This document shows, one piece after another, positions 34,303-63,240 of a stretch of 64,000 nt of DNA; the stretch's first letter is position 1, and each line of letters begins with the position of its first letter. Source of the stretch: Legionella steelei (GTDB taxonomy: Bacteria; Pseudomonadota; Gammaproteobacteria; Legionellales; Legionellaceae); contig NZ_LNYY01000005.1 in the NCBI RefSeq assembly GCF_001468005.1, forward strand, positions 124,001 to 188,000, written 5' to 3'. The position numbers and the translations under genes are program-made. The notes under the pieces are model-generated. The model was not told the DNA's origin and did no database searches. It was given only the letters and a program-made list of their open reading frames with translations.

Positions 34303-34666
34303 TTGTGAGTTTATAGTTTGGGCGTTTCATAAACCATCTTCAGAAAAATTTTTGTTGTATGCTGAATTAAAATTCGATGGGCAGTATTCGATCTTACTGT
34401 CCTATATTATTACCTTTTTTTACAATTTTTTAACAGTTGTTTATATATAAAATATCGTTTAAATTCAAACTTATAGCTTAATCTTCATTGGATAAAAAAG
34501 ACTTATTCATAACCACCTTATAAAATTGTTGCACATTTCCAAAAAAAGTCGCATAATCGCCTGCCTCTAACAATATGCTTATATTAAAATCATAAAATTT
34601 TATTAGAGCTCATGATGTTCAATAGTTGTATAAAAAATTAATAAATATTTTATTCAAAGGATAACC
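34303..34666. other. A/T-rich gap upstream of the cyclodipeptide cluster
   Basis: No gene is seen. It holds two possible promoters facing the cluster: TTTACA and TATATA 17 bases apart (34419-34447), and TTGCAC and CATAAT 17 bases apart (34529-34557). No terminator for ahcY is obvious. Confidence 0.5.
34529..34557 (+). promoter_or_regulatory. Likely promoter of the cyclodipeptide synthase cluster
   Basis: TTGCAC (34529-34534) and CATAAT (34552-34557) are separated by 17 bases. The start would leave a leader of about 100 bases before the cyclodipeptide synthase ATG. Confidence 0.45.
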
Positions 34667-35476
34667 ATGTTTTCTACACAGCAATCTATGTTTTCTACTC
34701 TCCAAATTGAACAAGAACCCAGCGCCATTTCATTGTCTGATCTATATACGCATAAGGCGTCTTTTAGATATTCGGAGTTAGATATTGAGAATAATAGTGA
34801 AAATAAGATTCCAGATTTTACAGGTAAGAAAGCATTATTATTTATTAGCGTGGGTCAAGCTTACCATGAAAAGGGTAAATTTTTAGCAACGATTGAATTA
34901 GTCAATAAATATGCTTTTAAGTCATGTGATATTGTTATGGCAGATACTCTGCAAAGACATAATCACAGAGGGAATATGGGATTAGAAAAAGCTACTGAAT
35001 ATTCTAAAAAAGCAGGTGATCTCTGGCTTGAGCGAAGTCAGCATGCATTAAATCTTTTTAAGTTACCGCATCAAATTATTCGCTGGGATGAATTACTTAA
35101 CCATTCGGATTATGACGGATTAAAAGAGTTAATAGTCAAAGAGTATCATGAAAACAAAGAGTACGCTGAAGCAATCCAAGCCAACGTTCTTACTTACATT
35201 GATAGACTTTCTCTGATCAATCCATTGACCGATAAAGATACATTATTCAGACATGGCTTGGATTATTTAATAGAAGAATGTCCAATCGTCATGCCAATGT
35301 GGGCAAAAATGGGTTACGACTTTATTATTTATCCTAAACCACTCACTATTGGTATGGCTAAAACTCGCGAATTATTCCTTTCTGAAGAAGACCAAGATAA
35401 ATGCCAATGGCTTTATCTTCGTTTTAAGAAAAAAAATACTCCAGGATGTTCTTCTGCAGCTAATGCCGATAATTAA
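34667..35476 (+). CDS. tRNA-dependent cyclodipeptide synthase, XYP subfamily
   Basis: These enzymes take two aminoacyl-tRNAs and make a 2,5-diketopiperazine without a nonribosomal peptide synthetase. LLFISVGQAYHEKGKF contains the acyl-accepting Ser (S61) and Q64 at the X position of XYP enzymes, where the NYH group has Asn. DTLQRHN follows. LDYLIEEC gives Y200 and E204, matching the catalytic Tyr and Glu of AlbC. IIYP gives the Y222-P223 pair that defines the subfamily. At 269 residues it is slightly longer than the usual ~240, with an unmatched N-terminal ~50 residues. The two amino acids cannot be read from sequence. It heads a four-gene cluster; the next gene starts 29 bases on. A second, diverged cyclodipeptide synthase is at 59901. 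Confidence 0.9.
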   Translation: MFSTQQSMFSTLQIEQEPSAISLSDLYTHKASFRYSELDIENNSENKIPDFTGKKALLFISVGQAYHEKGKFLATIELVNKYAFKSCDIVMADTLQRHNHRGNMGLEKATEYSKKAGDLWLERSQHALNLFKLPHQIIRWDELLNHSDYDGLKELIVKEYHENKEYAEAIQANVLTYIDRLSLINPLTDKDTLFRHGLDYLIEECPIVMPMWAKMGYDFIIYPKPLTIGMAKTRELFLSEEDQDKCQWLYLRFKKKNTPGCSSAANADN

Positions 35477-35505
35477 TATAAAGTGCTTTTTTTTAGGAAA
35501 TTCAA

Positions 35506-36507
35506 ATGAAAATATATGATCAAATACCTGTAATTGATGTTTCAGCGATACGTGCAGCAAAAACTAAACAGGAATTAATGGAGCTGGCAGAAGAATTTAA
35601 GTATGTCTACAGTAATATTGGCTTTGCTTATATTAAAAATCATGGAATTTCAAAAGAATTAATAGATTCTATTTTTGAACAGGCTAAGTTATTTCACCAT
35701 CTTCCAGAGGAAGAAAAACTTAAAATTATTCAAAATGAATTTTTTAGAGGCTACATGCCGTTTGCGACCTCTATCCTCTCTGTATCAACACTTGGAGAAG
35801 CAGTAAAGCCTAATCAAAGTTCAGCTTTTATTCTTGGACATGAAGTTGCTGACAGTGACCCAGATTTTAAAAAGAGGATTAACCTTGCTGGTCCAAATCA
35901 ATGGCCCGATGAAAAGTTACTTCCTAATTTCAAGAATACATTAATTCATTATCGAGATGAATTAACTGTATTAGTAAGAAATTTAATTCGTATGGTTTCT
36001 CTTTCAATGGGACAAGACTACTACGCTTTAGACAAATACTTTGTCAACCCAACTACTTTCTTACGGTTACAAAATTATCCAGCTCAGCCTAATATTATTC
36101 CTGAACATCAATATGGCATTGCACCACATACTGATTATGGAATACTCACCATTTTAGCTCAAGATTCACTGGGCGGCTTGCAGGTGAAACAACAGGATGA
36201 TTCCTGGTTAGACGTTGAGCCTTTGGAAGGGGCGTTCGTTTTGAATACAGGTGACATGTTGCGCCGGTTAAGTAATGATACTTATATTTCTACGCCACAT
36301 CGTGTTATCAATATTTCAGGAAAAGAGCGATATTCAATCCCGTTTTTCTTTGAACCTAACATGCATGCGCATATTTCTCCGCTTGTTATAAATAATGTTC
36401 CTCCAAAATATGAGCCTATTGAATATGCAGGGTATCTAATGAGACGGATCAAAGGTAATTATGATCTAGGTGCGAAAGAACTCGAAGATATCGTTGAAAC
36501 TGTTTAA
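35506..36507 (+). CDS. Isopenicillin N synthase-like Fe(II)/2-oxoglutarate oxygenase
   Basis: A 333-residue non-haem iron oxygenase of the IPNS/DIOX family. The iron ligands are H208 and D210 (APHTDYG) and H265 (STPHRV). R275 and S277 (RYSIPF) form the RxS pair that binds 2-oxoglutarate or substrate carboxylate. The DIOX N-terminal domain (IPVIDVSAI ... GFAYIKNHGI) is complete. Position right after the cyclodipeptide synthase suggests it hydroxylates, desaturates or cyclises that product. AGGAAA precedes the ATG. The reaction is not established. Confidence 0.88.
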   Translation: MKIYDQIPVIDVSAIRAAKTKQELMELAEEFKYVYSNIGFAYIKNHGISKELIDSIFEQAKLFHHLPEEEKLKIIQNEFFRGYMPFATSILSVSTLGEAVKPNQSSAFILGHEVADSDPDFKKRINLAGPNQWPDEKLLPNFKNTLIHYRDELTVLVRNLIRMVSLSMGQDYYALDKYFVNPTTFLRLQNYPAQPNIIPEHQYGIAPHTDYGILTILAQDSLGGLQVKQQDDSWLDVEPLEGAFVLNTGDMLRRLSNDTYISTPHRVINISGKERYSIPFFFEPNMHAHISPLVINNVPPKYEPIEYAGYLMRRIKGNYDLGAKELEDIVETV

Positions 36508-36600
36508 AAAATAATTTTTTTATCTATCCAATTTATAGATCCAGTGCCCTATGAAGTGGCATTCGAATATTTTAATTTTTAATATAACTTGAGGTAAAGC

Positions 36601-37920
36601 ATGTCCAGCCTTTTACTTAACAAGAATGATCAAAAAGTATTATGTAGTCGCTTTAATCAATTATTAGAACATGTTAAAAGCCATTTTCAATTCTATAAGG
36701 ATTATTATCAGCATATAGAAAACCCTATTGATTCTTTGGAAGATTTAAAGCATTTTCCATTAATTGATAAAAATGTACCTAATATTTCTGTCTTAGTTAA
36801 TGAAGTGTTAGAGACTAATCCACCTTCTTATTTTGAAACAAGTGGGACTTCAGGAAATCCTTTTCCAGTTATCCCTGATCTGGGACCTGAACGAGGCGGG
36901 GAATTTGCAAACTTCATTTTTGATTGGCTTGATTTAGATAAAGATGAAGTGAAGCGCGCTATAATCGCACTTCCATTTGAAATGAATCCAATTGGAATAA
37001 AATATTTTGCAGGATTAACCAAAGCCGGGATCACTGCTATTCCAGCTGGGGTAAAAACTTTAGTATGCATGCCCCAAAAAGTAATTGAACTTATAGAGCG
37101 TTTAAAACCAGAGCTTCTGATTGGGAGACCCCTAGAAACTCTTCGCTATGCACAAGCAATGACAGAACAAGGTATTGATCCTTGCAAATCTTCTATAAAA
37201 AAAATCATCTTAACCGGTGAGATTATCTCAAAAACGAAATTCCAACGATTGAGTAAAGTATATGGCGGTGCTTCTGTACACGGCGTGTATGGCTTGACTG
37301 AGCTGGATAGTGGTGGCTTGGTTTCATGCAGCAAGCATAACTACCATTTACCTTCCAATCCTTATTTGATTGTTGAGTTACTTAAAGATGATTTTAAAAC
37401 TCCAGTAACTCAAGAAAATGAAATAGGCAATATCGTTCTCACCAATACCAATGTAAATTACATGCCTTTATTGCGTTATAAAACGGGCGATTTTGGAATG
37501 CTCCAACATCATTGCGGCTGTGAATACGATACACCTGTGATTCATGTACTTGGCCGAGCTGCTGATAAGATATACTGTCCCAAAAACAAACTCTCAGTAT
37601 TTCCGATTCAAATTGAAGAGATCCTCTTCCAATTTGAAGAAATTGGTTGTGATTATCAAATTATCTCTAAGAATGATCAAATAGAAATTAAAATCGAACT
37701 TAATTCAATCCTCACTGATGATAAGAAAAATGAATTAATTAAGGTGGTAAAAGAGAAGATTAAGCAACAATTAAATATTGATATTGAGAAAGTCACTATT
37801 TATAACCCTAATGCATTAGCAAGCAAATTAGGGGTTGCTAAAGCAAAGGCCGGAACACTTTATAAAATTGATAATTTAAGTGAAAGTGAAATTGCGGAAC
37901 GTTTGCAGATTAACTTCTAA
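36601..37920 (+). CDS. PaaK-like adenylate-forming ligase
   Basis: A 439-residue member of the phenylacetate-CoA ligase/AMP-binding family. ETSGTSGNPFPV (residues 79-90) is the P-loop-type motif; the Lys usual after TSG/TTG-N-P is absent, as in the short PaaK-like enzymes. VHGVYGLTELDSGG is the adenine-binding turn and LLRYKTGDFG holds the ribose-binding Asp. The C-terminal domain ends KLGVAKAKAGTLYKI with Lys residues suited to the catalytic position. It would activate a carboxylate as an acyl-adenylate for CoA or amine transfer. Substrate unknown; a pathway intermediate from the preceding two enzymes is the obvious candidate. Confidence 0.85.
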   Translation: MSSLLLNKNDQKVLCSRFNQLLEHVKSHFQFYKDYYQHIENPIDSLEDLKHFPLIDKNVPNISVLVNEVLETNPPSYFETSGTSGNPFPVIPDLGPERGGEFANFIFDWLDLDKDEVKRAIIALPFEMNPIGIKYFAGLTKAGITAIPAGVKTLVCMPQKVIELIERLKPELLIGRPLETLRYAQAMTEQGIDPCKSSIKKIILTGEIISKTKFQRLSKVYGGASVHGVYGLTELDSGGLVSCSKHNYHLPSNPYLIVELLKDDFKTPVTQENEIGNIVLTNTNVNYMPLLRYKTGDFGMLQHHCGCEYDTPVIHVLGRAADKIYCPKNKLSVFPIQIEEILFQFEEIGCDYQIISKNDQIEIKIELNSILTDDKKNELIKVVKEKIKQQLNIDIEKVTIYNPNALASKLGVAKAKAGTLYKIDNLSESEIAERLQINF

Positions 37921-37951
37921 TTGGTTCTATCGATTCATTCAAGTCCATATT

Positions 37952-37995
37952 CGCGCTTTAAAGGATCTTCTAGATACCGCGCATAAAGCGCGGTA
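37952..37995 (+). promoter_or_regulatory. Two mutually exclusive hairpins between ligase and PLP-enzyme genes
   Basis: A perfect hairpin TACCGCGC-ATAAA-GCGCGGTA lies at 37975-37995. Alternatively CGCGCTTTA (37952-37960) pairs perfectly over nine bases with TAAAGCGCG (37984-37992), which would disrupt the first. No T-run follows. It sits inside the cluster in a 139-base gap and could be an attenuator, a processing site or a repeat remnant. Confidence 0.5.
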
Positions 37996-38059
37996 GTAGA
38001 ATAGAGAAGTTTGTGAGAATCGCTCAGGTTTTAAGTGCAAAGAGAAGAGGTAAATTATT

Positions 38060-39166
38060 ATGATAAATTGGGATGTAATCAGAGATCTTTTTCCTGTTGC
38101 AAAACAACAAACCTATTTTATGACTGCTGGAGGAGGAGCACTTCCTCTGCCAGTTCTTAAAGCAATTCAAAATAGATATGAAACTGTTGCTCAATTGGGT
38201 GGAAGAGCTTTTGGTGAAAACATTCAAATAATGGAACATTGCAGGGAAAAAATAGCAAAATTAATTAATGCAGATAAAGAACACATAGCCTTTATACCGC
38301 ACGTATCTTTTGGTATGAATGCTATCGCACAGTCACTCGAACCACAAAATTCTGTCTTAATAGCAAAAAACGATTTTGGTTCTACCGTTTTGCCATGGAA
38401 TAATAATGGACACAATATCCATTGGGTAGATTCTATGCAAGAACTGCTAGAAACTATTTCAAACAAAAACATGAATCAAATTTCATCCATTGTTACTAGC
38501 TTTATTCATTATGGAAATGGCTATAAGCTTCCTTTAGAACTCATTAAAGAATATTGTCCAGATGCAAATTTTATTGTTAATGGAACTCAGGGAATTGGTG
38601 CCTTTCCTATTGACGTCAAAAAACAAAAAATCGCTGCATTAATATGCTCTTGTTACAAATGGCTAGGGTGTGGGGAGGGTATTGCATTTATGTATATTCA
38701 CCCTGACTTCTTCAAAAAATTACAACCTAGTCTCGTAGGTTGGCGTAGTGTAGAAAGTGCTATGAGTTTCGATGGTAAGTGCTCTTTCTATAATACAGCG
38801 CGAATTTTCGAGCTTGGTTGGGATAATATGACCATTTTTTCTGGTTTAGATGCTGCCTTAGATTTAATCAATGAACTCAGTATTCCTAGAATCAGTGAAC
38901 GAATACAATCGCTTACAAATTACTTAGTTGAGAAGATCATAACAATCAACATTCCTATTAAGTCTGATTACCCAGGTTCATATCGATCTGGAATCACTTT
39001 ATTGGGGCCTTTTAACAATTTAGAACATGTCATGAAAAAATTGGAAGAAAACAATATTTGGGTAACCCAACGTGACGGAGGAATTAGGATTTCCTTACAT
39101 TATTTCAATAATGAAGACGATATTGATCATTTAGTTAATGTTCTTTCACAAATAGAACTATCTTAA
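38060..39166 (+). CDS. Class V PLP-dependent enzyme with Asn replacing the ring-binding Asp
   Basis: A 368-residue fold-type I PLP enzyme of the class V aminotransferase group, which also includes cysteine desulfurases and isopenicillin N epimerase. The PLP Lys is K200 in SCYKWLGCGEG. The segment FIVNGTQGIGAFPIDV has N174 where family members have Asp binding the PLP pyridine nitrogen. That change usually alters or lowers the electron-sink function. AGAGG precedes the ATG. It is the last gene of the cyclodipeptide cluster. An epimerase, lyase or desulfurase role on the cluster product is possible; which one is unknown. Confidence 0.85.
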   Translation: MINWDVIRDLFPVAKQQTYFMTAGGGALPLPVLKAIQNRYETVAQLGGRAFGENIQIMEHCREKIAKLINADKEHIAFIPHVSFGMNAIAQSLEPQNSVLIAKNDFGSTVLPWNNNGHNIHWVDSMQELLETISNKNMNQISSIVTSFIHYGNGYKLPLELIKEYCPDANFIVNGTQGIGAFPIDVKKQKIAALICSCYKWLGCGEGIAFMYIHPDFFKKLQPSLVGWRSVESAMSFDGKCSFYNTARIFELGWDNMTIFSGLDAALDLINELSIPRISERIQSLTNYLVEKIITINIPIKSDYPGSYRSGITLLGPFNNLEHVMKKLEENNIWVTQRDGGIRISLHYFNNEDDIDHLVNVLSQIELS

Positions 39167-39179
39167 TAAAAAAGGTACT

Positions 39180-39217
39180 GCACTCTATCATTGAAAAACG
39201 ATAGAGTGCTTAGTTTT
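39180..39217. terminator. Strong bidirectional intrinsic terminator
   Basis: The 10-base perfect stem GCACTCTATC/GATAGAGTGC around a 10-base loop is followed by TTAGTTTT on the plus strand. On the minus strand it is followed by AGTACCTTTTTT. It ends the cyclodipeptide cluster and the convergent NUDIX gene. Confidence 0.88.
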
Positions 39218-42364: not shown

Positions 42365-43780
42365 TTAAAAAGGCAATTCCAATAAGGGATTAATCATTGT
42401 AATTAATCTTCCAAATAACCCTTTAATGTCTTGCATGGCATCATAAGTCTTTGCTTCGAAACGAAGCGTTAAATAAGGTCCCGTATTGGAGGGACGAACT
42501 AGTCCCCATGCATTGGCAAGGTTTATTCTTAACCCATCAATATAGGTAAGCTCACCTCCTATATGCAGAGGAGCATGTAAAATTAACTGCCTCATAAACT
42601 CTTCTTTCAAATGTTCTGCAATATTAATTTTTAATTCATTAGTACTTAATGACTTAGGAAATTGCGCAAAAAAATGATGACTATCTCCTATCTGTGCACT
42701 TAACATTTCTATTGCACGTGCTGCAGCATAAATACCATCATCATATTGCAGCCATCGATCATTAAAATAGAAATGCCCACTATACTCTCCGCCGATTGCC
42801 GCTTTATGCTCTGACATGCCTGCCATAATATACGCCATGCCGGTTCGAGTCATAATCGCGCGTCCTTTGCGGGCTAAGATGTACTCATTTAAATGTTGGG
42901 TACATTTAATATCAAATACTACGCCCACATTAGGTTCTTTTTTAAGCAATGCATCAGCAAAAGCCAGCAACAAATAATCTGAAGGAATGATACAGCCTTG
43001 ATTATCTACAACACCCAAACGATCTCCATCCCCATCAAAAGCTACACCTACATCAGCATTTTGCTCCAAAACAGCCTGGCGTAAATCACTTAAATTTCCT
43101 TCTATTGACGGATCTGGATGATGATGAGTAAACGTTGATTGCACATCACAATATAAGGGTATGACCTCACAACCCAGAGCAGTCAATAGTTGAGGAGCCA
43201 CATGCCCTGCAACACCATTACCACAATCCACAATGACGCGAAATTTTCTCATTCCTCCCATACGTCCTTTGATGACACGAATGTATTTATTTATCACTTG
43301 CTCAGGAGGGTATTGAATCAACTTTCCGCTTTCTTCCTTATCAATGAAAAATTTTTCATCCATAATGCGTTGATATAAAGCTCGAAGCCTATTCCCGTAA
43401 TAGTTCTTGCCGCCTAGAGTGATCTTCAAACCATTATAATCTGCGGGATTATGACTCGCAGTGACCATTAACCCAGACTGGCATTGCAAGTCATACATTG
43501 CAAAATGTAACACTGGGGTTGGTAAGCAACCAATATCGATTATCCGGGTGCCACTTTCCAATAAGCCTTTGATTAAGGACTCTGTAAATGAAGCACTACT
43601 GGCACGACTGTCACGACAGAGCAATAGCACGTGCAATCCATGGATTTCCTGCAGCTCAGTCCCAATTGCTAGCCCTAGGGTGTAGTAAGTATTTTCATTT
43701 AAATCTTCGCCAATTTGACTGCGCACATCGTATTCTTTGAATATGGACAAAGGGGGTTTTATTAAGTAGGACTTACTCAT
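42365..43780 (-). CDS. Phosphomannomutase/phosphoglucomutase, AlgC-like
   Basis: An alpha-D-phosphohexomutase of 471 residues from the chosen ATG. The phosphoserine loop is TASHNPADYNGLK, the metal-binding loop is DGDGDRLG, and the sugar-binding loop is GGEYSGHFYF. The phosphate-binding loop VRPSNTGPYLTLR is near the C-terminus. All four AlgC domains are present. The ATG overlaps the megasynthase stop as ATGA, so translation is coupled. This suggests that the operon's product or its export involves a hexose phosphate, or merely that the genes share regulation. Confidence 0.92.
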   Translation of the reverse strand: MSKSYLIKPPLSIFKEYDVRSQIGEDLNENTYYTLGLAIGTELQEIHGLHVLLLCRDSRASSASFTESLIKGLLESGTRIIDIGCLPTPVLHFAMYDLQCQSGLMVTASHNPADYNGLKITLGGKNYYGNRLRALYQRIMDEKFFIDKEESGKLIQYPPEQVINKYIRVIKGRMGGMRKFRVIVDCGNGVAGHVAPQLLTALGCEVIPLYCDVQSTFTHHHPDPSIEGNLSDLRQAVLEQNADVGVAFDGDGDRLGVVDNQGCIIPSDYLLLAFADALLKKEPNVGVVFDIKCTQHLNEYILARKGRAIMTRTGMAYIMAGMSEHKAAIGGEYSGHFYFNDRWLQYDDGIYAAARAIEMLSAQIGDSHHFFAQFPKSLSTNELKINIAEHLKEEFMRQLILHAPLHIGGELTYIDGLRINLANAWGLVRPSNTGPYLTLRFEAKTYDAMQDIKGLFGRLITMINPLLELPF

Positions 43781-46700
43781 AATCTGGCTCCACACAAATC
43801 AGTTAAGATGCTACAAGTCCTTTCAGGTCTCTCGACAACCTCCTTAATTATCGTCAGAAACTGCCTAGTAAGAAGAGCAATCGTTTTACAGTCATACAAA
43901 TCAACTCGATATTTAAGGTATCCAGTTAATAAGGTTCTATTGTAAGTAAACTTTAAAGAAAGCTTACGGGGATTAGATCCCCAAAGAGGGATATTTGCAT
44001 CATCAAAAGCGAATGGTTTCAGCGTAAAACCAGGATCAACAGGTTTGATCTCCAAATGTTGAAAGTCGAAAGATACATCCGGTACCGGCAAACCAATCTC
44101 TGTAATTTGTTCTGGTTGTAAATACTGATATTCAGAAAACTGAACCAGGCTGTTTTGTAACTGTCTTGCTATATCAATGAAACTCATTACCGGAGAATAA
44201 TGGATAATCAAGGGTAGCTCATTAGCCACGTTACCCATAATTGTCTGGCATTTTTCTGTTTCTCGCCCAGCACAAAGCATAGTTATAAAAGCTTGATCGG
44301 TTTGAGCAAACTGTGCGAGTAACAACCCATAAGCCGTAAATAATAAATTAGGAAGAGTCACCTGACTTTTTTTTGTCAGATCTTGTAACTTATTAAGTAG
44401 TTCTACAGAGAAATGAATAGGTTCTTTCGCTCCTATGGCTAATGCCTGTTGCGGGATGGCTTTATCCGTAGGCAAAACGGGAGGATTATAGTTCAGCAAG
44501 GTATCATGCCAAAACGCAACGTATTTTTCGTAAGTACCATTCACTACATTCGCTAATTGCCAATCAATAAAATCTTCATAGGGTGTTGCCGCAGGTAAGG
44601 TTTGGCTGCTTCGATTTTGATTTAATGCATAAAAATGCAGAATATCTTGAAACAGAATAAGACTACTGCCCCCATCTGTTAGCAAATGACTTACACTAAA
44701 GGCCCAAACATATTGTTTCTCAGCATATTGAATCAAATAACTTTCCAATAATGGAGCTTTATGCAAATCAAATTGATGATGACTTATTTTTTTCAACAAT
44801 TGATTGATTTGTTTGTTTTGGTTCTTGGCTTCTAAAGTGCGAAAATCAAAATAATGTAATTTAAAATCAACTTGGTCATGACAAAATTGAAATGGCGTTC
44901 CCATAGAAATATGAAAACTGCAACGTAACATGGAATGTCTCTCAATGACCTGTTGGATACTTTTTTCCAAAATCAACACGTCCACAGAACCGTCAAGTTG
45001 AAACAAATTAGTCACTACATAAGCAGGATTGGCGGGCTGATCCTGGATATGTCTCCAAATTCGGATTTGTTGCACTGAAAGCTGTAATAAATGACGCGCC
45101 GCTTTAGTTAACAAGGTAGTTTCTTCCGAGTTCTCGGCGTCGACTATTTTTTCATTCAAAAAATAAATCAAATCTTCAAGAGAGCGGTTCTCAAATAATA
45201 AAGATTGAATACTTAGATTTTCAAGCAATAATTTGCGTTGTAGCTGGTGTAATAATTCCGAAGCAAGTAATGAGTCCATCCCAAGTGATAACAAATTGGC
45301 ATTCATCGGCAACGCATCGCTTTCTTTTAAACGAAGAATGATGCGAACTTCATTGATGAATAAGTTTGTTAAATCAGTCAGTCGCTGTTGTTGGTGCGCT
45401 TTCTTTAATCGCGTAATAAAATCTTGGTCTTGTTGGTTGGTTACTTGAGAAATAGGTGTTGGGTTCTCTTGGGTCGCGGGAAGAATCTCTACCAATAATT
45501 TCTTATAGGAGCGCGGTAAATGTTCCATCACGGAAACAATATTATTCGGCATCAAACACAATTGTGTGAAAGAACTTGATAGCATACGCTTTAGGGAAGC
45601 CAACCCTACTTTCTCACTAATGTTTTGAATACCATAAGCCAACCAAGATTGCACTAAATTGCGGGTCATACCTACTTCTTGCCAAGGACCAAAATTAATA
45701 CTTAATGCAGGTAATCCTGCTTGCGCGCGATAATGAGCTAAATTATCGAGAAATGTATTAGCCGCAGCATAGTTCGCTTGTCCTGGCGAACCAAATAAAG
45801 AGCTAATGGATGAAAACATAATGAAATGTTCTAACTCAGGCATAAGTTCTTTACTTAAACAGTGTAAATTAAATGAACCTTGCACTTTCGCACGGAAAAC
45901 TTCCTCAAACTGCTGCCACGTTAAATGCGACCACAAACCATCACTTAAGGTACCTGCTGTATGAAAGATCCCTTTAATTGGGGGCATTGTATTTTGTGCC
46001 ATGGTTAAAACCTGACGCAATTTCTGGTAATCGCTAACATCAGCTTGCAGATACTGGATTGCTATGTCATTCACACGAAACTCGTTGAGTCTTTCGGTGA
46101 TTTTATCGGTTAAAGGCTGCCTTCCCAGTAAAATAATAGAATTGACTTCTTGATGCATTAGCCACTTACATAAAATCGATCCTATCCCCCCCAGTCCGCC
46201 AGTAATCAGATAAGAACCATTTTTTCGCAATGTTTTTTTATTTTCAATCGAACGAGACAATGGTGCAGTGACAATACGTGGCACATATAATGCAGCTTGT
46301 TGATAAGCTAAAACTGGTTCATCCTGGAAAGGTTGACTGATAAGTTGATGGAGTTTTTGCGCTGTTTTTTCGGCTTTTGCTCCCACATCAACATCAAAAT
46401 GATGGTAATCCAGTTCGGGATATTCAAGCACTAGTGTTTTACCCATGCCCAGCAATGGTGAAAAAAATGGCAGAGATTGATGCTGTATGGTCGTTGTAGC
46501 TCTGGTTAGAGTCCATAGCTTACTCTTCTGCTTTTGGTGCATGAGTGCTTGCACTAAATGAAGCAAACCCGCACAAGAGCATCTAATTAATTGATTAAAA
46601 TCATCATAAGCTGCGGCTTTTAATTGCTCCTCTTGAAAAAACTCACTGCCAACTAAACCCCACAAATAGAAAACACCCCGGATTTCTGAGTGCTTGCTTA

Positions 46701-49700
46701 AGAAATTCAAAAAATGCTCTGGTTGATAAGGATTAAGCATTACTGTATCTCGGGATATTTGATATTTTACCCCGGGATTAACCACGATAGCATCCCGTAA
46801 ATAGGTTGATAAATGACGCACCATATTCTTACTTTCTGAATCTTTATTTGCAAAAATCAACCATGTACCAGTAATTGACGTTGGCTCCACAGGGTTATGA
46901 GCCTCAGCCAATGGTTTCCACTCCACCTGATAAAGAGATTGGCTTAGAAAACTATCTAGGACTCTATTCTCTTGAGCGATAGGATCCACGGTCAGCCAAT
47001 AAGATTGATGCTGGAAAGGATACGTAGGTAAAGGTTTTGCAGAAATCTGTAGCTTAAATGGAGCATCATAAGCATGCCAATCAATTGTATTCCCGTTCTT
47101 ATAAAGTTGAGCGATTGACTCAGATAACGTTTGCCAGTTGGATTGATTTTTCCTGAGGGAAGCAAGCCACAATATCTGTTGTGGTTGAATAGAATGTTCC
47201 TTGGCAAAATTTAATAGAACTGGCTGAGGCCCTATTTCAATAAAAGTGCGATAATTTTCTAAAAGTAATTCCTGTATCCCGGCGCTAAATTGAACTGTAG
47301 CGAGCATATGTTCGGCCCAATAATCTGCATTGATAGCCGAGATCGCTTTGCCGCTGACATTCGAGATAAGTACCATTTTAGGTGCATGATACTGAATGCT
47401 TGCAGAAATCCGCTTAAATTCAGCAATCATAGGGCGCAAGAGTTCTGAATGAAATGCATGAGACACTTGCAACTCAGTTGTTCTCAGGCCTTGTAACTGA
47501 CACTTCTGATCTAATAGACGAATTACCCCTTCCTCACCTGCAAATACAACCTGGCTAACGCTATTTACCGCAGCAATATTTAAGATGGCATGGGGTGAAC
47601 AAGCCTTGAACTCATCAAGTAATGCTAAAGCCTGGGATTCTTCCACATTCACCGCAAGCATACTGCCTTTTTGCTGTGCTTGCATGAGTTTTGCGCGAGC
47701 GGTAATAAGTTTTAAACCATCAGCCAAATTCATAACGCCAGCTACAGTTGCAGCAACATACTCGCCCACACTATGGCCAATAACTGCTGTAGGATGAATC
47801 CCCCAGCTCATCCATAATTGAGCTAAAGCGTATTGAAGAACAAACAAAGCAGGTTGGGTATACTGAGTTTGGTTCAGTAAATAAGCTTTCTCTGAAGCAA
47901 ACATCACGGTCGTGAGTGGTTCAGGCAAATAATCCGCCAATAATTGACTGCAATGATCCACTTCTTTCCTAAATAATGGATGGCTATTATAAAGTTCCCA
48001 CCCCATCCCAGAATATTGTGATCCTTGCCCGGTAAATAAAAAGGTAGTTTTACCAACATTTAGCCCCACAGACTCATTAGATATAATTGCAGCGCGCAGT
48101 TTCTCAATTAATTCACCATGTGTTTGTACTGAAATAGCAAATCGATAATCTAATGTACTGCGACCAATAGCAAGACTATGGCATAAACTGGCCAAATCAA
48201 CACAGTCTTCACCTTGGATAAACTCTAATAATCTTGTTTGTTGTGCGGCTAAAGCTTCTGGCGTATGTCCCGATAAAGTAAAAACATGCAAAGGCCGCTG
48301 AGGAGCATCAGTGGGTGTAATGGTTGCATCAGTAGTTGGAGATTCGGCAAGTATTAAATGTGCATTAGTTCCAGTAAAACCAAATGAGCTTACACCCGCA
48401 TAACGTATGTGTTTTCGATCACCAGTTTCCCATTCATGCAGTGCCGTAGGAACTCGCGCAGGAATTGATGCCAAGTTAATTAAAGGATTCACCATTTCAA
48501 AATGCAAATTAGGTGGAATTTGTCGATGTTGTAACATCAATACTGTTTTGATAAGGCCAGCCATACCCGCTGCAGCTTCCAAATGTCCTATGTTGCTTTT
48601 CACAGAACCAATATATAAATCCTTTTGGCGTGTACTTGTCGCAAAAACCTTTTTCAGCGCATTAAACTCTATCGGATCGCCTAAACGAGTGCCTGTTCCA
48701 TGAGCCTCAACATAATCAATTGCATCTGGAGAAATGCCCGCCATATGAAGTGCTTTACCAATTAAGTCCTGTTGTGCTTTAGGACTAGGTGCGGTAATGC
48801 CATTACTGTGCCCATCACTATTAACTACGGCGCTTTGAATCACAGCGATGATATTATCTTTATTGCGTTGCGCATCAGACAAACGTTTTAAGATTAAAAT
48901 GCCACACCCTTCACTACGGACATACCCATCCGCTTTAGCATCAAAGACTTGGCATTTACCATTAGGGGATAACATACCTGCTTGCGAAAAGCTCACACTT
49001 AAAGAAGGGTCAAGAATGCTGTTTACGCCACCAACAATAGCTAAGCTACAGGTTTTTTCATGCAAATCCTGACATGCATTAAACACTGCAACCAGCGAAG
49101 AAGAGCATGCCGTGTCCACAGCTATTGATTCACCATGGGTCCCTAAAAAATAAGCAATACGCCCAGCTGCCGCACTGTGCGCATTACCTATTCCATAATA
49201 GGCATCTGCATGATTAGATATGGTATTGTGAGCTAATTGACTATAATCATTCGAAGAAATTCCAATAAAGATACCCGTATCACTATTATCTAAAGATAAA
49301 GGTGCAATACCTGCTCGTTCCAATGCTTCCCATGTTAACTCCAGCAAGAGGCGATGCTGGGGATCCATTGCTTCTGCTTCACGGCGACTAATATTGAATA
49401 AAGCTGCATCAAAACGATCAATATTATCAATAAATCCACCTTTAGAGGTCACCATTTTTCCCGGAGTACCAGGTTGTGCCGCATAATATAATTCACTATC
49501 CCAACGCTCAGGAGGGACTTGCGTAATCCCATCCTCACCTGCTTTTAAGAATTTCCAAAATGCTTCTGGGCTATTCGCTCTTCCTGGAAAACGACAACTC
49601 ATGCCAATAATAGCAATCGGTTCTATTGGATGTTCTTTATCCATTTCCTGAGTAACCTGTGCCTGCCTTCCGTCTTGGTCAGTTTCCAAATAATAAACTA

Positions 49701-51606
49701 ATTGCTCTATGGTTGAATGTTCCCAGAGCAAACTTGGATTAACTTCACGCTGAACTTTAAATTCGAGAGCCCCACAAAACTGAACCGCCAAGCTGGAATC
49801 AACGCCATAATAAGCAAAGTTAGCTCTAGAATTAATCGCTTCTGGATTTAGATGGAGCTGCTTCGCAAACCATTGCTTCATCCATTGTTGTAATTCATTT
49901 GGATTTAAATCAATTTGTTGTGTTTTAACATCCAAGCTTGCTTTTTGCCATTGAGCAATAATTTTTAACTCACCTCGCTCCACTGCCTGACGAGTGGCAT
50001 TGCGTTGAACTTTTCCACTTGAGGTTTTAGGTAACGTTGCCTGTTGAATTAAAATAATGCGAGCCGGTAATAAGGGTAAATCCTCACCACAACGTTGGAG
50101 AATTGCGTTAAAAACTTCATCGTGATCTTTAGCACGACGATGCACCTCTTGTACAATCACTAATTCGGGTTCTCCATCGATTTCTAAGGTAAATGCAGCA
50201 CAACCATGTTGAATTAACGCCGGATGACTGTCGTGAACAATTGACTCAATATCTTGCGGATAAATATTATGACCTCGGATGATAATTAAGTCTTTTAAAC
50301 GGCCAGTAATAAATAATTCACCATACTCATCCAAAAAACCAAGATCACCAGTACGTAAATATTTCTTATCGGAATTTAGCAGCTTAAGTTCAAAAATTTG
50401 CTGGCTAATCTCTGGTTTATTCCAATATCCTTGGGTAACACTAGGCCCAGAAACAACAATTTCACCTATTTGGAATGCCTTTAATTCAGTAACAGTTTGA
50501 GGGTCGATAATCTTAATTTCATGCTCAGAAGAAGCATAACCACAGCCAACCAAATCCAAATGATCAATTCCTGTTTCATTCAATTGGATCTGGTGTTCAT
50601 TCTGTAAAGAGTGCTTATCTACCTGTAGAATTCGCGTACTACTGGCCGTTTTTTTACCACTAACCATTAACGTTGTTTCTGCCATCCCATATACTGGATA
50701 ACAACACTCTGCTCGAAAACCATATGCCTTAAATGCCTCGCTAAATCGAGCCAAGGTTTTCGCACTTACAGGCTCCGCACCATTAAGAGCAAATAGCCAA
50801 TTACTTAAATCCAATTGTTTTTTTTGCTCATCGGTTATCGACGTCACACACATTTCATAAGAAAAATTAGGTGCCGGAGAAATATTTGCTCGATAATCAC
50901 TAATTGTTTTTAACCAGATGAAAGGATTTTTTAAGAATGTGGTCGGTGCCATTAAAACACTGTGTTTGTTATATGCTAAAGGATATAAAATGGCGCCAAT
51001 TAATCCCATATCGTGAAAAGGAGGTAACCAGGAACAAACCGTTTCAATTTTTCCCTCAAAGAGAGTATCAATAACTGTTGTGTTAGCAATAATATTCCCA
51101 TGACTGACCATAACCCCCTTAGGATTTCCGGTAGAGCCAGAGGTGTATTGTAAAAATGCTAAGTCATCCAGAGAAACCTGAGGCATTCCGCCACTATAAG
51201 ACGTATGAGACTCATCTTCGATGGCAATGACTTGTACTTTTTCAAAAACATATTGCTGTGCAATTGCAGTAGTTGTCAGGATAATCTCTGCTTTAGCATC
51301 ATCAATAATTGCTAAAATACGTTGAGTATGTCGATTACTACGAGGAGGATAGGCGGGCACAGCAACAATGCCAGCCATTAGGCAAGCAAGAAAAGAGGCG
51401 ATATACTCTAATCCTGGCGGCAATAATAAAATACATCGTGAACCGGGTTGAGTCACTACCAGTAATCTCGACGCAATATCAATTACGTTATGTAGCAGTT
51501 CCTTATTGGTTAAAGTATTTTTTTTATTTGCGCCTAAAAAGGTATAGGCTATCCTCTCTGGAAAAAGTGTTGCATTTTGACTTAGAGTATTAATTAAAGT
51601 TTCCAT
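43777..51606 (-). CDS. Hybrid FAAL-PKS-condensation megasynthase
   Basis: A 2609-residue modular enzyme. Fatty-acyl-AMP ligase: ~1-550 (YTSGSTGNPKG at 154-164; no CoA-ligase Lys loop read). Carrier domain 1: ~570-645, phosphopantetheine Ser S604 in GVDSS. Ketosynthase: ~661-1090, C834 in DTACSSS, H969, H1008. Acyltransferase: ~1187-1480, S1279 in GHSVG; HAFHS at 1383-1387 is typical of malonyl specificity. Ketoreductase: ~1795-1975, GGLGGIG at 1803 and Y1946. Carrier domain 2: ~2075-2155, S2112 in GMDSL. Condensation-like domain: ~2175-2609 with SHLLTDG (H2307, D2311); the first His of HHxxxDG is Ser. No dehydratase, enoylreductase or thioesterase is seen. The expected route is fatty acid activation, one malonyl extension, reduction to a beta-hydroxyacyl chain, then condensation with an unknown acceptor. 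It is followed by phosphohexomutase and HAD genes. Confidence 0.93.
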   Translation of the reverse strand: METLINTLSQNATLFPERIAYTFLGANKKNTLTNKELLHNVIDIASRLLVVTQPGSRCILLLPPGLEYIASFLACLMAGIVAVPAYPPRSNRHTQRILAIIDDAKAEIILTTTAIAQQYVFEKVQVIAIEDESHTSYSGGMPQVSLDDLAFLQYTSGSTGNPKGVMVSHGNIIANTTVIDTLFEGKIETVCSWLPPFHDMGLIGAILYPLAYNKHSVLMAPTTFLKNPFIWLKTISDYRANISPAPNFSYEMCVTSITDEQKKQLDLSNWLFALNGAEPVSAKTLARFSEAFKAYGFRAECCYPVYGMAETTLMVSGKKTASSTRILQVDKHSLQNEHQIQLNETGIDHLDLVGCGYASSEHEIKIIDPQTVTELKAFQIGEIVVSGPSVTQGYWNKPEISQQIFELKLLNSDKKYLRTGDLGFLDEYGELFITGRLKDLIIIRGHNIYPQDIESIVHDSHPALIQHGCAAFTLEIDGEPELVIVQEVHRRAKDHDEVFNAILQRCGEDLPLLPARIILIQQATLPKTSSGKVQRNATRQAVERGELKIIAQWQKASLDVKTQQIDLNPNELQQWMKQWFAKQLHLNPEAINSRANFAYYGVDSSLAVQFCGALEFKVQREVNPSLLWEHSTIEQLVYYLETDQDGRQAQVTQEMDKEHPIEPIAIIGMSCRFPGRANSPEAFWKFLKAGEDGITQVPPERWDSELYYAAQPGTPGKMVTSKGGFIDNIDRFDAALFNISRREAEAMDPQHRLLLELTWEALERAGIAPLSLDNSDTGIFIGISSNDYSQLAHNTISNHADAYYGIGNAHSAAAGRIAYFLGTHGESIAVDTACSSSLVAVFNACQDLHEKTCSLAIVGGVNSILDPSLSVSFSQAGMLSPNGKCQVFDAKADGYVRSEGCGILILKRLSDAQRNKDNIIAVIQSAVVNSDGHSNGITAPSPKAQQDLIGKALHMAGISPDAIDYVEAHGTGTRLGDPIEFNALKKVFATSTRQKDLYIGSVKSNIGHLEAAAGMAGLIKTVLMLQHRQIPPNLHFEMVNPLINLASIPARVPTALHEWETGDRKHIRYAGVSSFGFTGTNAHLILAESPTTDATITPTDAPQRPLHVFTLSGHTPEALAAQQTRLLEFIQGEDCVDLASLCHSLAIGRSTLDYRFAISVQTHGELIEKLRAAIISNESVGLNVGKTTFLFTGQGSQYSGMGWELYNSHPLFRKEVDHCSQLLADYLPEPLTTVMFASEKAYLLNQTQYTQPALFVLQYALAQLWMSWGIHPTAVIGHSVGEYVAATVAGVMNLADGLKLITARAKLMQAQQKGSMLAVNVEESQALALLDEFKACSPHAILNIAAVNSVSQVVFAGEEGVIRLLDQKCQLQGLRTTELQVSHAFHSELLRPMIAEFKRISASIQYHAPKMVLISNVSGKAISAINADYWAEHMLATVQFSAGIQELLLENYRTFIEIGPQPVLLNFAKEHSIQPQQILWLASLRKNQSNWQTLSESIAQLYKNGNTIDWHAYDAPFKLQISAKPLPTYPFQHQSYWLTVDPIAQENRVLDSFLSQSLYQVEWKPLAEAHNPVEPTSITGTWLIFANKDSESKNMVRHLSTYLRDAIVVNPGVKYQISRDTVMLNPYQPEHFLNFLSKHSEIRGVFYLWGLVGSEFFQEEQLKAAAYDDFNQLIRCSCAGLLHLVQALMHQKQKSKLWTLTRATTTIQHQSLPFFSPLLGMGKTLVLEYPELDYHHFDVDVGAKAEKTAQKLHQLISQPFQDEPVLAYQQAALYVPRIVTAPLSRSIENKKTLRKNGSYLITGGLGGIGSILCKWLMHQEVNSIILLGRQPLTDKITERLNEFRVNDIAIQYLQADVSDYQKLRQVLTMAQNTMPPIKGIFHTAGTLSDGLWSHLTWQQFEEVFRAKVQGSFNLHCLSKELMPELEHFIMFSSISSLFGSPGQANYAAANTFLDNLAHYRAQAGLPALSINFGPWQEVGMTRNLVQSWLAYGIQNISEKVGLASLKRMLSSSFTQLCLMPNNIVSVMEHLPRSYKKLLVEILPATQENPTPISQVTNQQDQDFITRLKKAHQQQRLTDLTNLFINEVRIILRLKESDALPMNANLLSLGMDSLLASELLHQLQRKLLLENLSIQSLLFENRSLEDLIYFLNEKIVDAENSEETTLLTKAARHLLQLSVQQIRIWRHIQDQPANPAYVVTNLFQLDGSVDVLILEKSIQQVIERHSMLRCSFHISMGTPFQFCHDQVDFKLHYFDFRTLEAKNQNKQINQLLKKISHHQFDLHKAPLLESYLIQYAEKQYVWAFSVSHLLTDGGSSLILFQDILHFYALNQNRSSQTLPAATPYEDFIDWQLANVVNGTYEKYVAFWHDTLLNYNPPVLPTDKAIPQQALAIGAKEPIHFSVELLNKLQDLTKKSQVTLPNLLFTAYGLLLAQFAQTDQAFITMLCAGRETEKCQTIMGNVANELPLIIHYSPVMSFIDIARQLQNSLVQFSEYQYLQPEQITEIGLPVPDVSFDFQHLEIKPVDPGFTLKPFAFDDANIPLWGSNPRKLSLKFTYNRTLLTGYLKYRVDLYDCKTIALLTRQFLTIIKEVVERPERTCSILTDLCGARL

Positions 51607-59900: not shown

Positions 59901-60671
59901 ATGAGTTTAGTTGAGAACAGGATTGTGAAAGCTTCTTTTAGAGAAAACCCCGTAGAGGAAAGAAAATTGTTTCCTCAATCCTCATGCCTTATGCCCATTA
60001 GTGTTGGACAAGCAATCCATGAAGGCGAAAAATTTGCAGCAGTAATTAAACTAATTAATACCTCATTTAAACAGTGTACCATCCTCGTGGATGATAGCGT
60101 GCAACGCCATACAATTGGCATTATGAACCATGCATCTTCCGATGAATTATACCAGCTTGCTGTAAAAGAAGGGGATGATTGGTTAAAGCGTAATGAAATG
60201 GCGTACAATCAATTAACCATACCTTTTGAGATCATGCGTTGGGATGATTGGTACAACAGTCAGAATTACATTAACGGCCACGTACGTGTCCAAAAAGAAT
60301 ATGATTCCAATGAATTATTCCGGCAAGCAATGCATGCCAACATTGATGATTTTTTAACGCGATATCTGAGCCGATTTTCTACGCAAGATGTTGATTCTGA
60401 ACGAGCATTCCAACTTTGTCTTGATTATTTGATTGAAGAATGTTCCGTGATGTGTCTGTGGACAGAAAAGGCATACGATTTCGAAGTTTATCCTAGCGGC
60501 AGAAACAAAGCGATGGCTGCGACTTATGAATATTTAATTAAACCTCATTATCCAGACTATTTAAGACCTGTTGCCCTTCGCTTTAAAAAATATCCTGCAA
60601 AAGCAACAGAAGAGAACCTGAAAATAATGCAAAAAGCGGGTCATGAAAGTGAGTCAATTGGCGGTTTTTGA
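59901..60671 (+). CDS. Second tRNA-dependent cyclodipeptide synthase, XYP subfamily
   Basis: A 256-residue cyclodipeptide synthase. PISVGQAIHEGEKF gives S34 (acyl acceptor) and Q37. DDSVQRHTIG matches the first enzyme's DTLQRHN. LDYLIEEC gives Y176 and E180. EVYP gives Y197-P198, the XYP signature. It is clearly homologous to the 34667 enzyme but diverged, and pocket segments around the Ser and C-terminal loops differ, so it probably uses other amino acids. A strong AAGGAGG lies before the ATG. No tailoring gene follows; the next gene is a convergent sensor kinase. It is divergent from the OTU-like gene. Confidence 0.88.
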   Translation: MSLVENRIVKASFRENPVEERKLFPQSSCLMPISVGQAIHEGEKFAAVIKLINTSFKQCTILVDDSVQRHTIGIMNHASSDELYQLAVKEGDDWLKRNEMAYNQLTIPFEIMRWDDWYNSQNYINGHVRVQKEYDSNELFRQAMHANIDDFLTRYLSRFSTQDVDSERAFQLCLDYLIEECSVMCLWTEKAYDFEVYPSGRNKAMAATYEYLIKPHYPDYLRPVALRFKKYPAKATEENLKIMQKAGHESESIGGF

Positions 60672-60768: not shown

Positions 60769-63240
60769 TTAATGAGAGGCGTTTGCGTTTACCCATTGTT
60801 TCATTTCAAAAGTCGTTTCATTGATTACCTTAAGCACCTGCTGATACAATTGCTCCAATAAATCGCGCTGCCCTGATTTCCAGTAGCGCTCAAGATATTG
60901 GCATGCTATTTTTATTCGAGTTGCGCCAACATATACTACGCCTCCCTTAATTTTATGAATAATTTTTTGAGTTTGTTCCCAGTCCCCTTGGGCATGTGCT
61001 TTTTTGAGCAACGCAATATCTTCGACAAGTGATTGATTGAGCATGAGATTGAGTATGTCGCAAAGTGTATCTTCTGTACCGGTAGTTTTAATTCCCTCTT
61101 CAACATCAAATATTGGGAATTGAGACAGCTCAAAAAGTTCTTCTACTGTTGCCGGTAAATCAAAAAGTCTATGTTCAGGGATTTCCTTTGCTTTTTGTAT
61201 GGAAGGAATGAATGAGCTTAAAATATCACAACATTTTTTTTGTGTTAGTGGTTTACTAATTACAGCATTCATGCCCGACTCAATGCATCGTTGTTTGTTT
61301 TCCTCACCTACATGGGCTGTAAGTGCAATGATGGGAGTGTAATATTTTTTTGCAACTTCATGCACACGAATGTGATGGGTTACTTGATAACCGTCCATAT
61401 CAGGTAATCCAACATCCATAAAAATCAAATCGTATTTATTTTTTTTCCATAGTTGTAATGCAGATTGTCCATCAATCGCTGTATCTACTTGACAGTGACA
61501 TTCACTCAACATGACTTTTGCTACAGTTTGCGCCACAGAATTGTCTTCAACGAGTAAGATACGATGTTTTAATGATTTTGTTGATGGAGCTAGAGAAGAG
61601 GGGGTATTTACAGTATTTTGTTCAAGATGGTCAATCTTAGGCTCAAAATCTTTATCAATACCGGTTTCATCTTCTAAGAGTGCTGTTTTTAAGGGGATGA
61701 TGCATGTGAACGTTGTTCCTTTAGCAACAGTACTCTCGACATATATTTCCCCATCTAATTCATCAATGAACTGTTTGATTACAGAAAGACCTAAACCTGC
61801 TCCTTTATAAATTCCTTTATAGGAAGGCGTTAAGCGTTTGAATTGCAAGAAAATTTCTTGTTGCTTGTCTTTGGGAATCCCCATGCCACTATCTTCCACG
61901 ACAAATTTGATGACTACTTCACGGTTTTCTCGTTTCGCTAGTATGGCTATTAATTTCACAAACCCAGCATCTGTAAAATTTAATGAATTGGAAATCAGTT
62001 CGAGTAAAATTCTATGAATGCGAATGGGATCTCCGATAAAGAATCGTGGGATATTGGGGTCAAATTCTAAAGATAAAGTCAAACGCTTAGAGGACGCTTT
62101 GGCTTTATTCAAATCAATTACATGCTGAACTATTTTCTCTAAGATAAATTTTTTCCTCACTTTGGGAAGTTCACCAGAGCTTACATGAATCGCTTCGAGT
62201 ACATCATCCATAAAATCAAGTAGGGCATGGCTTGAGGCAATCAGATTCTCTGCATATTCTTTAATTCTAGGACTTTCTGCTTCAGCTTTGATGATGTCGG
62301 TAAAGCCAACAATCCCAGAGAGCGGGGTGCGGATGTCGTGGCGCATATTCTCAAGAAACTCAGTTTTTGCCAGGCTCGCGGCTTCTGCTTTTTCTTTTGC
62401 AATCTTGAGTTCCGCTTCAATTTTTTTCCTGTCGGTGATATCAATGGAAATCCCCAATACACCTGTAATTTCCCCTCTTTTATTACGCATTGGCGATTTA
62501 TGACTTAAGAAAATAGCATCTTTACCTTCTGTGAGTGCCTTTTCTTCAATAATCTCGGTTTCACCAGTTTGCATGATGTGCAGATCATTTTGACGAAATA
62601 ATTCGGCTTGATTCTTACCCCATGGTAAATCAAAATCGGTTTTGCCTACGATTTCATAGCCAAATAGAAATCCTACGCTTTGAGCTTGTCGGTTATTACA
62701 CCCTAAATAAACCCCGTTTTTATCTTTCCAGTAAACGTGTCCTGGCATATGGGCCAGAATGTTTTCCAAGGTGGATTGTGTTTGTTCTTGGCTCGACCAG
62801 AGATCAGCTTCTTGTTTCTTGCGATTGGTTATATTTAATGAGATACCAATAATACCAGTGACATTACCTTGTGCATCGTGCAGAGGTGTTTTCCTAGTTA
62901 ATACGACTACGCGTTCTCCATTCGCGATGGTACCAATTTCCTCCAACTCCAATGGAGAATTAAGTGTCATTACTTTTAAATCATTATTACGAATCGTTTC
63001 TGCAGACGCAGCCCAAGGCATTTCAAAATCTGTTTTTCCAATTACAGATTTCATCCCAGTCATTTCCAACATCGCATCATTACAACCTAAATAAACTCCA
63101 TTTTTGTCTTTCCAATAGATACTTCCTGGTAATGCTTTGATAATGCTTAAAATGACAGAGGAATTTTCTGCAGATGGAACTGGAGTAGGGGGTTCCTTGA
63201 AATGATTAGTTTTGATTTTATTACGTTTCTTTTCTGACAT
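60769..63240 (-). CDS. Hybrid sensor histidine kinase: PAS-PAS-HisKA-HATPase-REC-Hpt
   Basis: An 823-residue phosphorelay protein with no membrane segment. Two PAS domains (about 31-140 and 157-270) share the repeated PGSIYWKDKNGVYLGCN/PGHVYWKDKNGVYLGCN, indicating tandem duplication. HisKA has H301 in MRHDIRTPLSGI. HATPase has N418 (NSLNFTD), D450 in EDSGMGI and GAGLGLSV. The receiver domain (about 558-680) has D609 in IFMDVGLPDMDG. The C-terminal Hpt has H762 in IIHKIKGG. A REC-Hpt output passes phosphate to an unlinked regulator; none is next to it. The PAS ligand is unknown. Confidence 0.93.
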   Translation of the reverse strand: MSEKKRNKIKTNHFKEPPTPVPSAENSSVILSIIKALPGSIYWKDKNGVYLGCNDAMLEMTGMKSVIGKTDFEMPWAASAETIRNNDLKVMTLNSPLELEEIGTIANGERVVVLTRKTPLHDAQGNVTGIIGISLNITNRKKQEADLWSSQEQTQSTLENILAHMPGHVYWKDKNGVYLGCNNRQAQSVGFLFGYEIVGKTDFDLPWGKNQAELFRQNDLHIMQTGETEIIEEKALTEGKDAIFLSHKSPMRNKRGEITGVLGISIDITDRKKIEAELKIAKEKAEAASLAKTEFLENMRHDIRTPLSGIVGFTDIIKAEAESPRIKEYAENLIASSHALLDFMDDVLEAIHVSSGELPKVRKKFILEKIVQHVIDLNKAKASSKRLTLSLEFDPNIPRFFIGDPIRIHRILLELISNSLNFTDAGFVKLIAILAKRENREVVIKFVVEDSGMGIPKDKQQEIFLQFKRLTPSYKGIYKGAGLGLSVIKQFIDELDGEIYVESTVAKGTTFTCIIPLKTALLEDETGIDKDFEPKIDHLEQNTVNTPSSLAPSTKSLKHRILLVEDNSVAQTVAKVMLSECHCQVDTAIDGQSALQLWKKNKYDLIFMDVGLPDMDGYQVTHHIRVHEVAKKYYTPIIALTAHVGEENKQRCIESGMNAVISKPLTQKKCCDILSSFIPSIQKAKEIPEHRLFDLPATVEELFELSQFPIFDVEEGIKTTGTEDTLCDILNLMLNQSLVEDIALLKKAHAQGDWEQTQKIIHKIKGGVVYVGATRIKIACQYLERYWKSGQRDLLEQLYQQVLKVINETTFEMKQWVNANASH

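Follow-up and report, generated by a model that had tools for sequence, protein, structure and literature searches.

The locus

The window analyzed here is a stretch of 64,000 nucleotides from Legionella steelei (contig NZ_LNYY01000005.1; G000:C5:124001-188000 in our numbering, where G000 is the analyzed genome), and its element of interest is a run of four genes, here called A, B, C and D, which encode a cyclodipeptide synthase (CDPS), a Fe(II)/2-oxoglutarate (2OG)-type oxygenase, a PaaK-like adenylate-forming ligase and a class V enzyme dependent on pyridoxal phosphate (PLP), respectively (Table 1). A first-pass annotation made from the letters of the window had placed the four genes on one strand and had assigned A, C and D to these families. 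All four open reading frames were recovered on that strand, and the three assignments are confirmed by phmmer and Pfam matches together with conserved motifs. Upstream of A lie sahH, recognized by a domain match, and metK and carA, read from their open reading frames, while a Nudix gene follows D on the opposite strand.

The intergenic gaps are 29 bases between A and B, 93 between B and C and 139 between C and D. The hairpin between sahH and A suggests that the unit has a transcription start of its own. Behind D there is a hairpin with a stem of 13 pairs which the terminator scan scored on the minus strand; read on the plus strand it has one stem mismatch and is followed by TTAGTTTT. The bidirectional terminator of the first-pass annotation is therefore a real hairpin whose stem is kept on both strands, but as only the minus strand was scored, termination in both directions is plausible rather than established. 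The C-D gap holds a hairpin of 17 bases, which is the sole match to its arm pattern in the window and has no run of T behind it.

Table 1. Features of the four-gene unit and its surroundings, with a beta-lactamase gene from a related genome
Feature	Position	Strand	Evidence
A: XYP-type cyclodipeptide synthase, predicted to make cyclo(Gly-Glu)	34667..35476	+	open reading frame, phmmer, motif alignment
B: Fe(II)/2-oxoglutarate-type oxygenase	35506..36507	+	open reading frame, Pfam, motif conservation
C: PaaK-like adenylate-forming ligase	36601..37920	+	open reading frame, Pfam, motifs
D: class V (fold type I) PLP enzyme	38060..39166	+	open reading frame, Pfam, alignments, fold model
Terminator-like hairpin, likely end of unit	39180..39209	.	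scored on - strand; same stem, one mismatch, on +
Terminator-like hairpin between sahH and A	34379..34402	+	terminator scan
Perfect GC-rich hairpin in C-D gap, CCGCGC-ATAAA-GCGCGG	37977..37993		pattern search of window
Class A beta-lactamase gene adjoining D in G092	L039:5444-6517

Distribution of the four genes

Each of 143 genomes of the order was searched with A, B, C and D. A was found in 12 genomes at identities of at least 59%, all other matches having at most 45% identity and less than 135 bits; B was found in 12 genomes and in no other at E<=1e-50, C in 12 and in no other at E<=1e-25, and D in 12 at identities of at least 54%, other matches being at most 31% identical apart from a broken copy in the analyzed genome itself. 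The 12 genomes are the same for all four genes (G000, G036, G053, G054, G066, G068, G074, G082, G089, G092, G104 and G127), and intact orthologs of A-D are absent from the other 131. Because this phyletic pattern is identical in 12 of 143 genomes, the four-gene set exceeds chance. Paralogs of D with 25-31% identity are present in eight further genomes at E<=1e-25, and short D remnants in G081 and G090. The first-pass annotation had proposed a four-gene cyclodipeptide pathway, to be refuted if homologs of the last three genes turned up mostly without a CDPS; none of the 143 genomes has intact B, C or D in the absence of a CDPS ortholog, and the shared pattern of A-D bears the proposal out.

The gene order is A-B-C-D in nine genomes, A-C-D-B in two (G036 and G104) and A-C-D in one (G092). 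Six flank arrangements were seen, that of G127 sharing one side with another. The co-occurrence is in part shared descent, and it is the losses, the rearrangement and the re-acquisition described below that give it weight. Alignments A1-A3 contain nine of the 12 rows, and the counts of residue conservation given below cover all 12 copies (11 for B, the B of G092 lying outside the cluster locus).

Beyond the order, a CDPS profile run against 398 genomes of the phylum, a thin sample, matched only the analyzed genome at E<=1e-10, as did a profile of C at E<=1e-60 in the same genomes. A contig search with the CDPS alone gave five loci, all of them Legionella, and in a protein database, which carries no genome context, 68 CDPS relatives of A were found at E<=1e-10, some of them metagenomic. 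Plasmids yielded no C at E<=1e-20 and only distant CDPS matches, which come from a sponge symbiont; this CDPS, with 37% identity, is carried by plasmids MK748462-MK748465 of Endohaliclona renieramycinifaciens.

Gain, loss and accessory genes

In six genomes the cluster, accompanied by a TauD-type gene, lies between a major facilitator superfamily (MFS) gene, fam5, and fam9. This same site holds remnants in three genomes (G000, G081 and G090), that of G081 being just a 23-residue piece of D, and is empty in four (G050, G056, G091 and G068; no trace at E<=1e-6). The decayed copy of the analyzed genome (L080, G000:C19:82000-101000) consists of fragments of the TauD-type gene and of C and a broken D, and A and B were not found there. 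Its C and D remnants are 86-96% identical to the clusters of the six relatives and 62-66% identical to C and D of the window. The window cluster is 64-70% identical to the clusters of these six genomes, while sahH of the same genomes is 92-95% identical. The GC content is 34.7% in the cluster, 39.3% in the window and 40.9% in metK-sahH, and G068 shares the divergent cluster copy at the metK-sahH site. The identity of the cluster is low against that of sahH, its GC content is low and the genome's own remnant lies at the site of the relatives; the ancestral copy thus decayed in this lineage, and a divergent one was likely acquired at another site.

The TauD-type dioxygenase (L040:10434-11399 and its relatives) is intact in eight of the 143 genomes, all of which bear the cluster; it is adjacent to it in seven and situated elsewhere in one, and remnants are found in the analyzed genome and in G090. 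A different MFS gene, fam28, lies directly behind B in G036, G104 and G092. The MFS gene fam5 was considered as a pathway gene and ruled out, since five of the 14 genomes in which it is found at E<=1e-120 do not have the cluster, and since it also adjoins the site where that is empty. Besides A-D, the TauD-type gene and the MFS genes, just a HAD-like gene recurs across more than one flank arrangement.

Gene A and its predicted core product

A matches the solved CDPSs 5mlq and 9i5m with phmmer (E 4e-47, residues 52-258), and its ortholog in Legionella lansingensis carries PF16715 in a precomputed domain list. S61, Y200, E204 and Y222-P223 of A align with S34, Y172, E176 and Y194-P195 of the CDPS from Nocardia brasiliensis and are invariant in 12 of 12 copies, which is the catalytic Ser, Tyr and Glu plus Tyr-Pro of the XYP subfamily. 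F59, the P1 gate, is Phe in all 12 clusters. In the C2 (glutamyl) pocket S199 of the Ala-Glu enzyme is replaced by T227 of A, a Thr likewise in 12 of 12. Across the 32 nearest CDPS rows (window protein included) the position of F59 is occupied by Phe in 23, Ala in seven, Leu in one and Pro in one.

The synthase of locus L044, 69% identical to A, matches the L. lansingensis protein P0002 in every residue; this is the sole CDPS match in the genome of that species, and it sits in the same four-gene cluster. An L. lansingensis enzyme, CDPS 87, was expressed in a survey and its product was 100% cyclo(Gly-Glu) (cGE); this specificity was ascribed to Phe at the second P1 residue, where Leu is linked to Ala-Glu and Ala to Leu-Glu (PMC5816076). 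Variants of the N. brasiliensis Ala-Glu enzyme with Ala or Gly for Leu32 make Leu-Glu (cLE) (PMC13062777). From the species and the single occurrence we infer that CDPS 87 is P0002, and by our own mapping the second P1 residue of the survey would be L32 of the Ala-Glu enzyme and F59 of A. Because Phe59 would leave no room for a side chain in the P1 pocket, while the pocket for Glu is retained, A is predicted to make cyclo(Gly-Glu) too.

Genes B, C and D

B contains the Pfam domains DIOX_N and 2OG-FeII_Oxy. Its iron triad, H208-x-D210 and H265, as well as R275-x-S277 do not vary among the 11 aligned copies, giving the HxD...H and RxS motifs expected of such oxygenases. The best solved match of B is an EFE-type (ethylene/succinate-forming-type) enzyme at 5e-58, with isopenicillin N synthase (IPNS) at 7e-15. 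The term "IPNS-like" used in the first-pass annotation thus holds at the level of the superfamily, but IPNS is not the closest relative of B, which is to be found in the EFE-type 2OG enzymes.

C has 45.4 bits for PF14535 (AMP-binding_C_2; cut-off 25) and 23 bits for PF00501, under its cut-off of 29.9. It shows the hallmarks of the PaaK-type superfamily, namely the P-loop (TSGTSGNP, with S for N in one copy), YGxTE (as YGLTE), RYxTGD (as RYKTGD) and the C-terminal AMP-binding_C_2 domain, besides KLGxAKxKAGTL and the invariant residues C243, H249, C305 and C307. C is far under the cut-off of every NCBIfam model that it matched, including the phenylacetate-CoA ligase equivalog TIGR02155 (91 bits against 646) and the best-scoring other model, NF053551 (121 against 520), so C does not count as a phenylacetate-CoA ligase proper. 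The predicted model of C is poor (58.8) and was not used for a fold search.

D belongs to Aminotran_5 (PF00266, 103 bits against a cut-off of 21.5) and is nearest to SufS and C-DES both by sequence and by predicted fold, the structure model being usable (pLDDT 79.5). The predicted Schiff-base lysine, K200, is invariant and aligns with the corresponding lysine in C-DES and in a SufS. F106, R338 and R343 are further residues of note; the two arginines are invariant and likely bind a substrate carboxylate, as in SufS. The Asp at the ring nitrogen of PLP normally stabilizes a carbanion. In D this Asp is replaced by N174 in 12 of 12 copies; Asp is present at that position in C-DES, in a SufS and in nine of nine D paralogs read (10 places were found, nine fetched). 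Because Asn174 stands in place of Asp, PLP enzymology would predict a weaker electron sink, which probably makes a demanding carbanion step less likely. Cysteine desulfurase identity of D was rejected, as the last 60 residues contain no conserved Cys (a single Cys in two of 12 copies); all SufS/IscS models of NCBIfam are far under their cut-offs. Isopenicillin N epimerase is absent from both the sequence and the fold match lists of D, which by themselves do not exclude it.

A proposed pathway and its alternatives

Most cyclodipeptides have no free carboxylate. Cyclo(Gly-Glu) keeps the glutamyl carboxylate, the sole one of the molecule, and it is for this reason that a carboxylate activation by C would make sense; the activation step of the first-pass annotation is in this way both upheld and sharpened. 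That annotation had also placed PLP chemistry at an alpha carbon. For a diketopiperazine this is chemically weak: its two nitrogens belong to amide bonds, so that an aldimine has no free amine from which to form. As the ring offers none, D would rather act on a free amino acid. We favor, with a confidence that is only slightly better than even, a unit that makes cyclo(Gly-Glu), oxidizes the ring and activates the glutamyl carboxylate for an amine prepared by D. A would join two aminoacyl-tRNAs to cyclo(Gly-Glu), B would hydroxylate or desaturate the ring or its side chain, C would adenylate the side-chain carboxylate and pass it to an amine or thiol, and D would supply the amine partner. The TauD-type dioxygenase, in the eight of the 12 genomes that have it, would likely add another oxidation, and the MFS protein behind B, in three, would likely export the product. 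The gene content, the families, the catalytic motifs and the shared phyletic pattern on which this scheme is built were observed directly, and cyclo(Gly-Glu) synthesis is published for a CDPS of L. lansingensis; the later reactions, from oxidation to coupling and PLP chemistry, are what the sequences suggest. Tentatively, and with rather more doubt than belief, we can go further and see a pathway built for conjugation, in which a ring from a tRNA-dependent synthase is adenylated at its free glutamyl carboxylate and a PLP enzyme lacking the ring-nitrogen Asp supplies or shapes the attachment. The product would be the first described hybrid diketopiperazine of its kind, lost and regained in Legionella lineages.

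Several points weigh against this scheme. The 12 genomes are related (four genera of one family), so that the pattern does not amount to 12 independent events, and in one of them, G092, B is on another contig with the MFS gene behind it. The gap of 139 bases between C and D, with its hairpin, makes it possible that A-D are not one transcript. Three gene trees place G127 differently, which means that the genes do not have one undisturbed history and suggests that parts of the cluster were exchanged; the main groups agree. With regard to A, it scores under the curated cut-offs (PF16715 19.5 bits against 27, TIGR04539 37 bits against 45), and nine of the 32 CDPS rows closest to it do not have Phe as the P1 residue. 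PaaK-like enzymes use other acids as well, so C need not act on a cyclodipeptide, and F390 synthetase, a PaaK relative among the NCBIfam matches of C, adenylates a hydroxyl. The analyzed genome has no intact TauD-type gene, and MFS fam28 is found without the cluster in G028 (63% identity), with relatives of 38-39% identity in G106 and G118.

The nearness of D to SufS raises the possibility that cysteine or cystine serves it as a source of sulfur, to which C hands the activated glutamyl carboxylate, so that a thioacid or a ring with sulfur in it results. The lack of a conserved C-terminal Cys and the low scores for the desulfurase models both speak against this, no sulfur carrier was identified among those flanking genes that were named, and we consider such a route improbable, if the least so of the alternatives. 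A slimmer chance is given to C converting the glutamyl carboxylate to its CoA or adenylate ester, with which D then condenses an amino acid through a C-C bond, like the alpha-oxoamine synthases. An acyl-activating enzyme would here be paired with a fold-type-I PLP enzyme, and the two invariant arginines of D would have their role, but the known alpha-oxoamine synthases belong to another class of fold type I and Asn174 in place of the carbanion-stabilizing Asp should disfavor the step. Equally slim is the chance that C and D make one small molecule and A and B another, their joint travel being due to a common host niche. The separation of B from A, C and D in G092 would fit it, as would the wide C-D gap of the window; on the other hand A, C and D form one same-strand run, which may or may not include B, in 12 of 12 clusters with several types of flank, and none of these genomes lacks B.

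The first-pass annotation had spoken of a beta-lactam-like enzyme set, which would mean oxidative ring closure by B and epimerization by D. B does share a superfamily with IPNS, the family of the accessory TauD-type enzyme also holds clavam and carbapenem synthases, and a class A beta-lactamase gene adjoins the cluster of G092. That gene is, however, present in 39 of 45 genomes of the same genus and in 47 of 143 overall, and among the 12 loci read a single one was seen to have it beside the cluster. Such steps would need a thiol and a free amine, both of which a diketopiperazine lacks, and the nearest relatives of B and D are the EFE-type enzymes and SufS/C-DES. With these family distances and the spread of the beta-lactamase gene through most of the genus the analogy was rejected, and we give the corresponding chemistry hardly any probability.

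Relation to known systems

Among the known systems closest to the proposed cyclo(Gly-Glu) conjugation pathway is CDPS 87, which has the same Phe gate as A. The passages of PMC5816076 on this enzyme treat the synthase alone, and they do not discuss the neighbors B, C and D or a further product. Nbra-CDPS of N. brasiliensis (structures 5mlq and 9i5m), which makes cyclo(Ala-Glu) (cAE), is like A in belonging to the XYP subfamily, in its Ser, Tyr, Glu and Tyr-Pro residues and in its glutamyl second residue; it differs in having Leu32 in place of Phe59 and, according to PMC13062777, gives no detectable cGE.

CDPS pathways are mostly tailored by oxidases, P450s and methyl- or prenyltransferases acting on carboxylate-free rings. 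The oxidases of the bicyclomycin pathway are mostly 2OG-dependent, with one P450, its cyclo(Ile-Leu) core is without a carboxylate, and it is not known to include a ligase or an enzyme dependent on PLP. In the pyoverdine pathway the glutamyl group of a peptide metabolite is reshaped by PvdN, which has the class V PLP fold of D (fold row 5i90); it is periplasmic by its model name, and the match of D to that model is far under the cut-off (NF051467, 37.5 bits against 650). Tailoring of the kind usual for CDPSs is in part described in PMC5767969, and the bicyclomycin pathway likewise proceeds from a CDPS core to oxidative tailoring (PMC5930311, PMC6934819). Among the predicted CDPS operons of PMC2922099 are some with an acyl-CoA ligase (Actinosynnema and Streptomyces AA4) or with a SelA-like PLP enzyme, each of which shares one further class with the present unit. 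What sets them apart is a methyltransferase in a context like that of AlbC, or else Mur/GNAT ligases, and the four-gene set does not appear in the operons described there. CDPSs accompanied by 2OG oxygenases are also already in print (PMC2922099, PMC5767969). In a literature search of titles, abstract openings and text passages, no description of the A-D combination was found. The first-pass annotation had known of no described cyclodipeptide pathway with this set; individual elements of it have been published.

If the proposed pathway is correct, a carboxylate-bearing cyclodipeptide, an activating enzyme and a PLP enzyme would together represent a conjugation chemistry which we did not find described in the literature searched, and the published group of cyclo(Gly-Glu) specificity would gain a candidate pathway. 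The invariant Asn of D is a concrete oddity which can be checked. Legionella live inside amoebae, and the loss, the remnants and the re-acquisition seen in a single genus would fit a metabolite on which selection changes.

Other features of the window

A hybrid polyketide synthase-nonribosomal peptide synthetase of 2609 amino acids (AMP-binding, KS, AT, KR and condensation domains) is encoded on the minus strand at 43777-51606, 4.6 kb beyond the cluster. For its HAD-like and phosphomannomutase-like neighbors there was no match in that part of the nearest relative, L038, which was fetched. A second CDPS, very close to the solved 5ocd (E 8e-148), lies at 59901-60671 on the plus strand, convergent with a hybrid kinase of PAS-PAS-kinase-receiver-Hpt architecture at 60769-63240 on the minus strand. 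Of the 29 loci with the second CDPS type that were fetched, 28 have a homolog of this kinase close to the CDPS (30-87% identity, often partial, the genome's own copy aside). It is possible that the two form a pair of ring signal and sensor; PAS domains near CDPSs in general are mentioned in PMC5767969.

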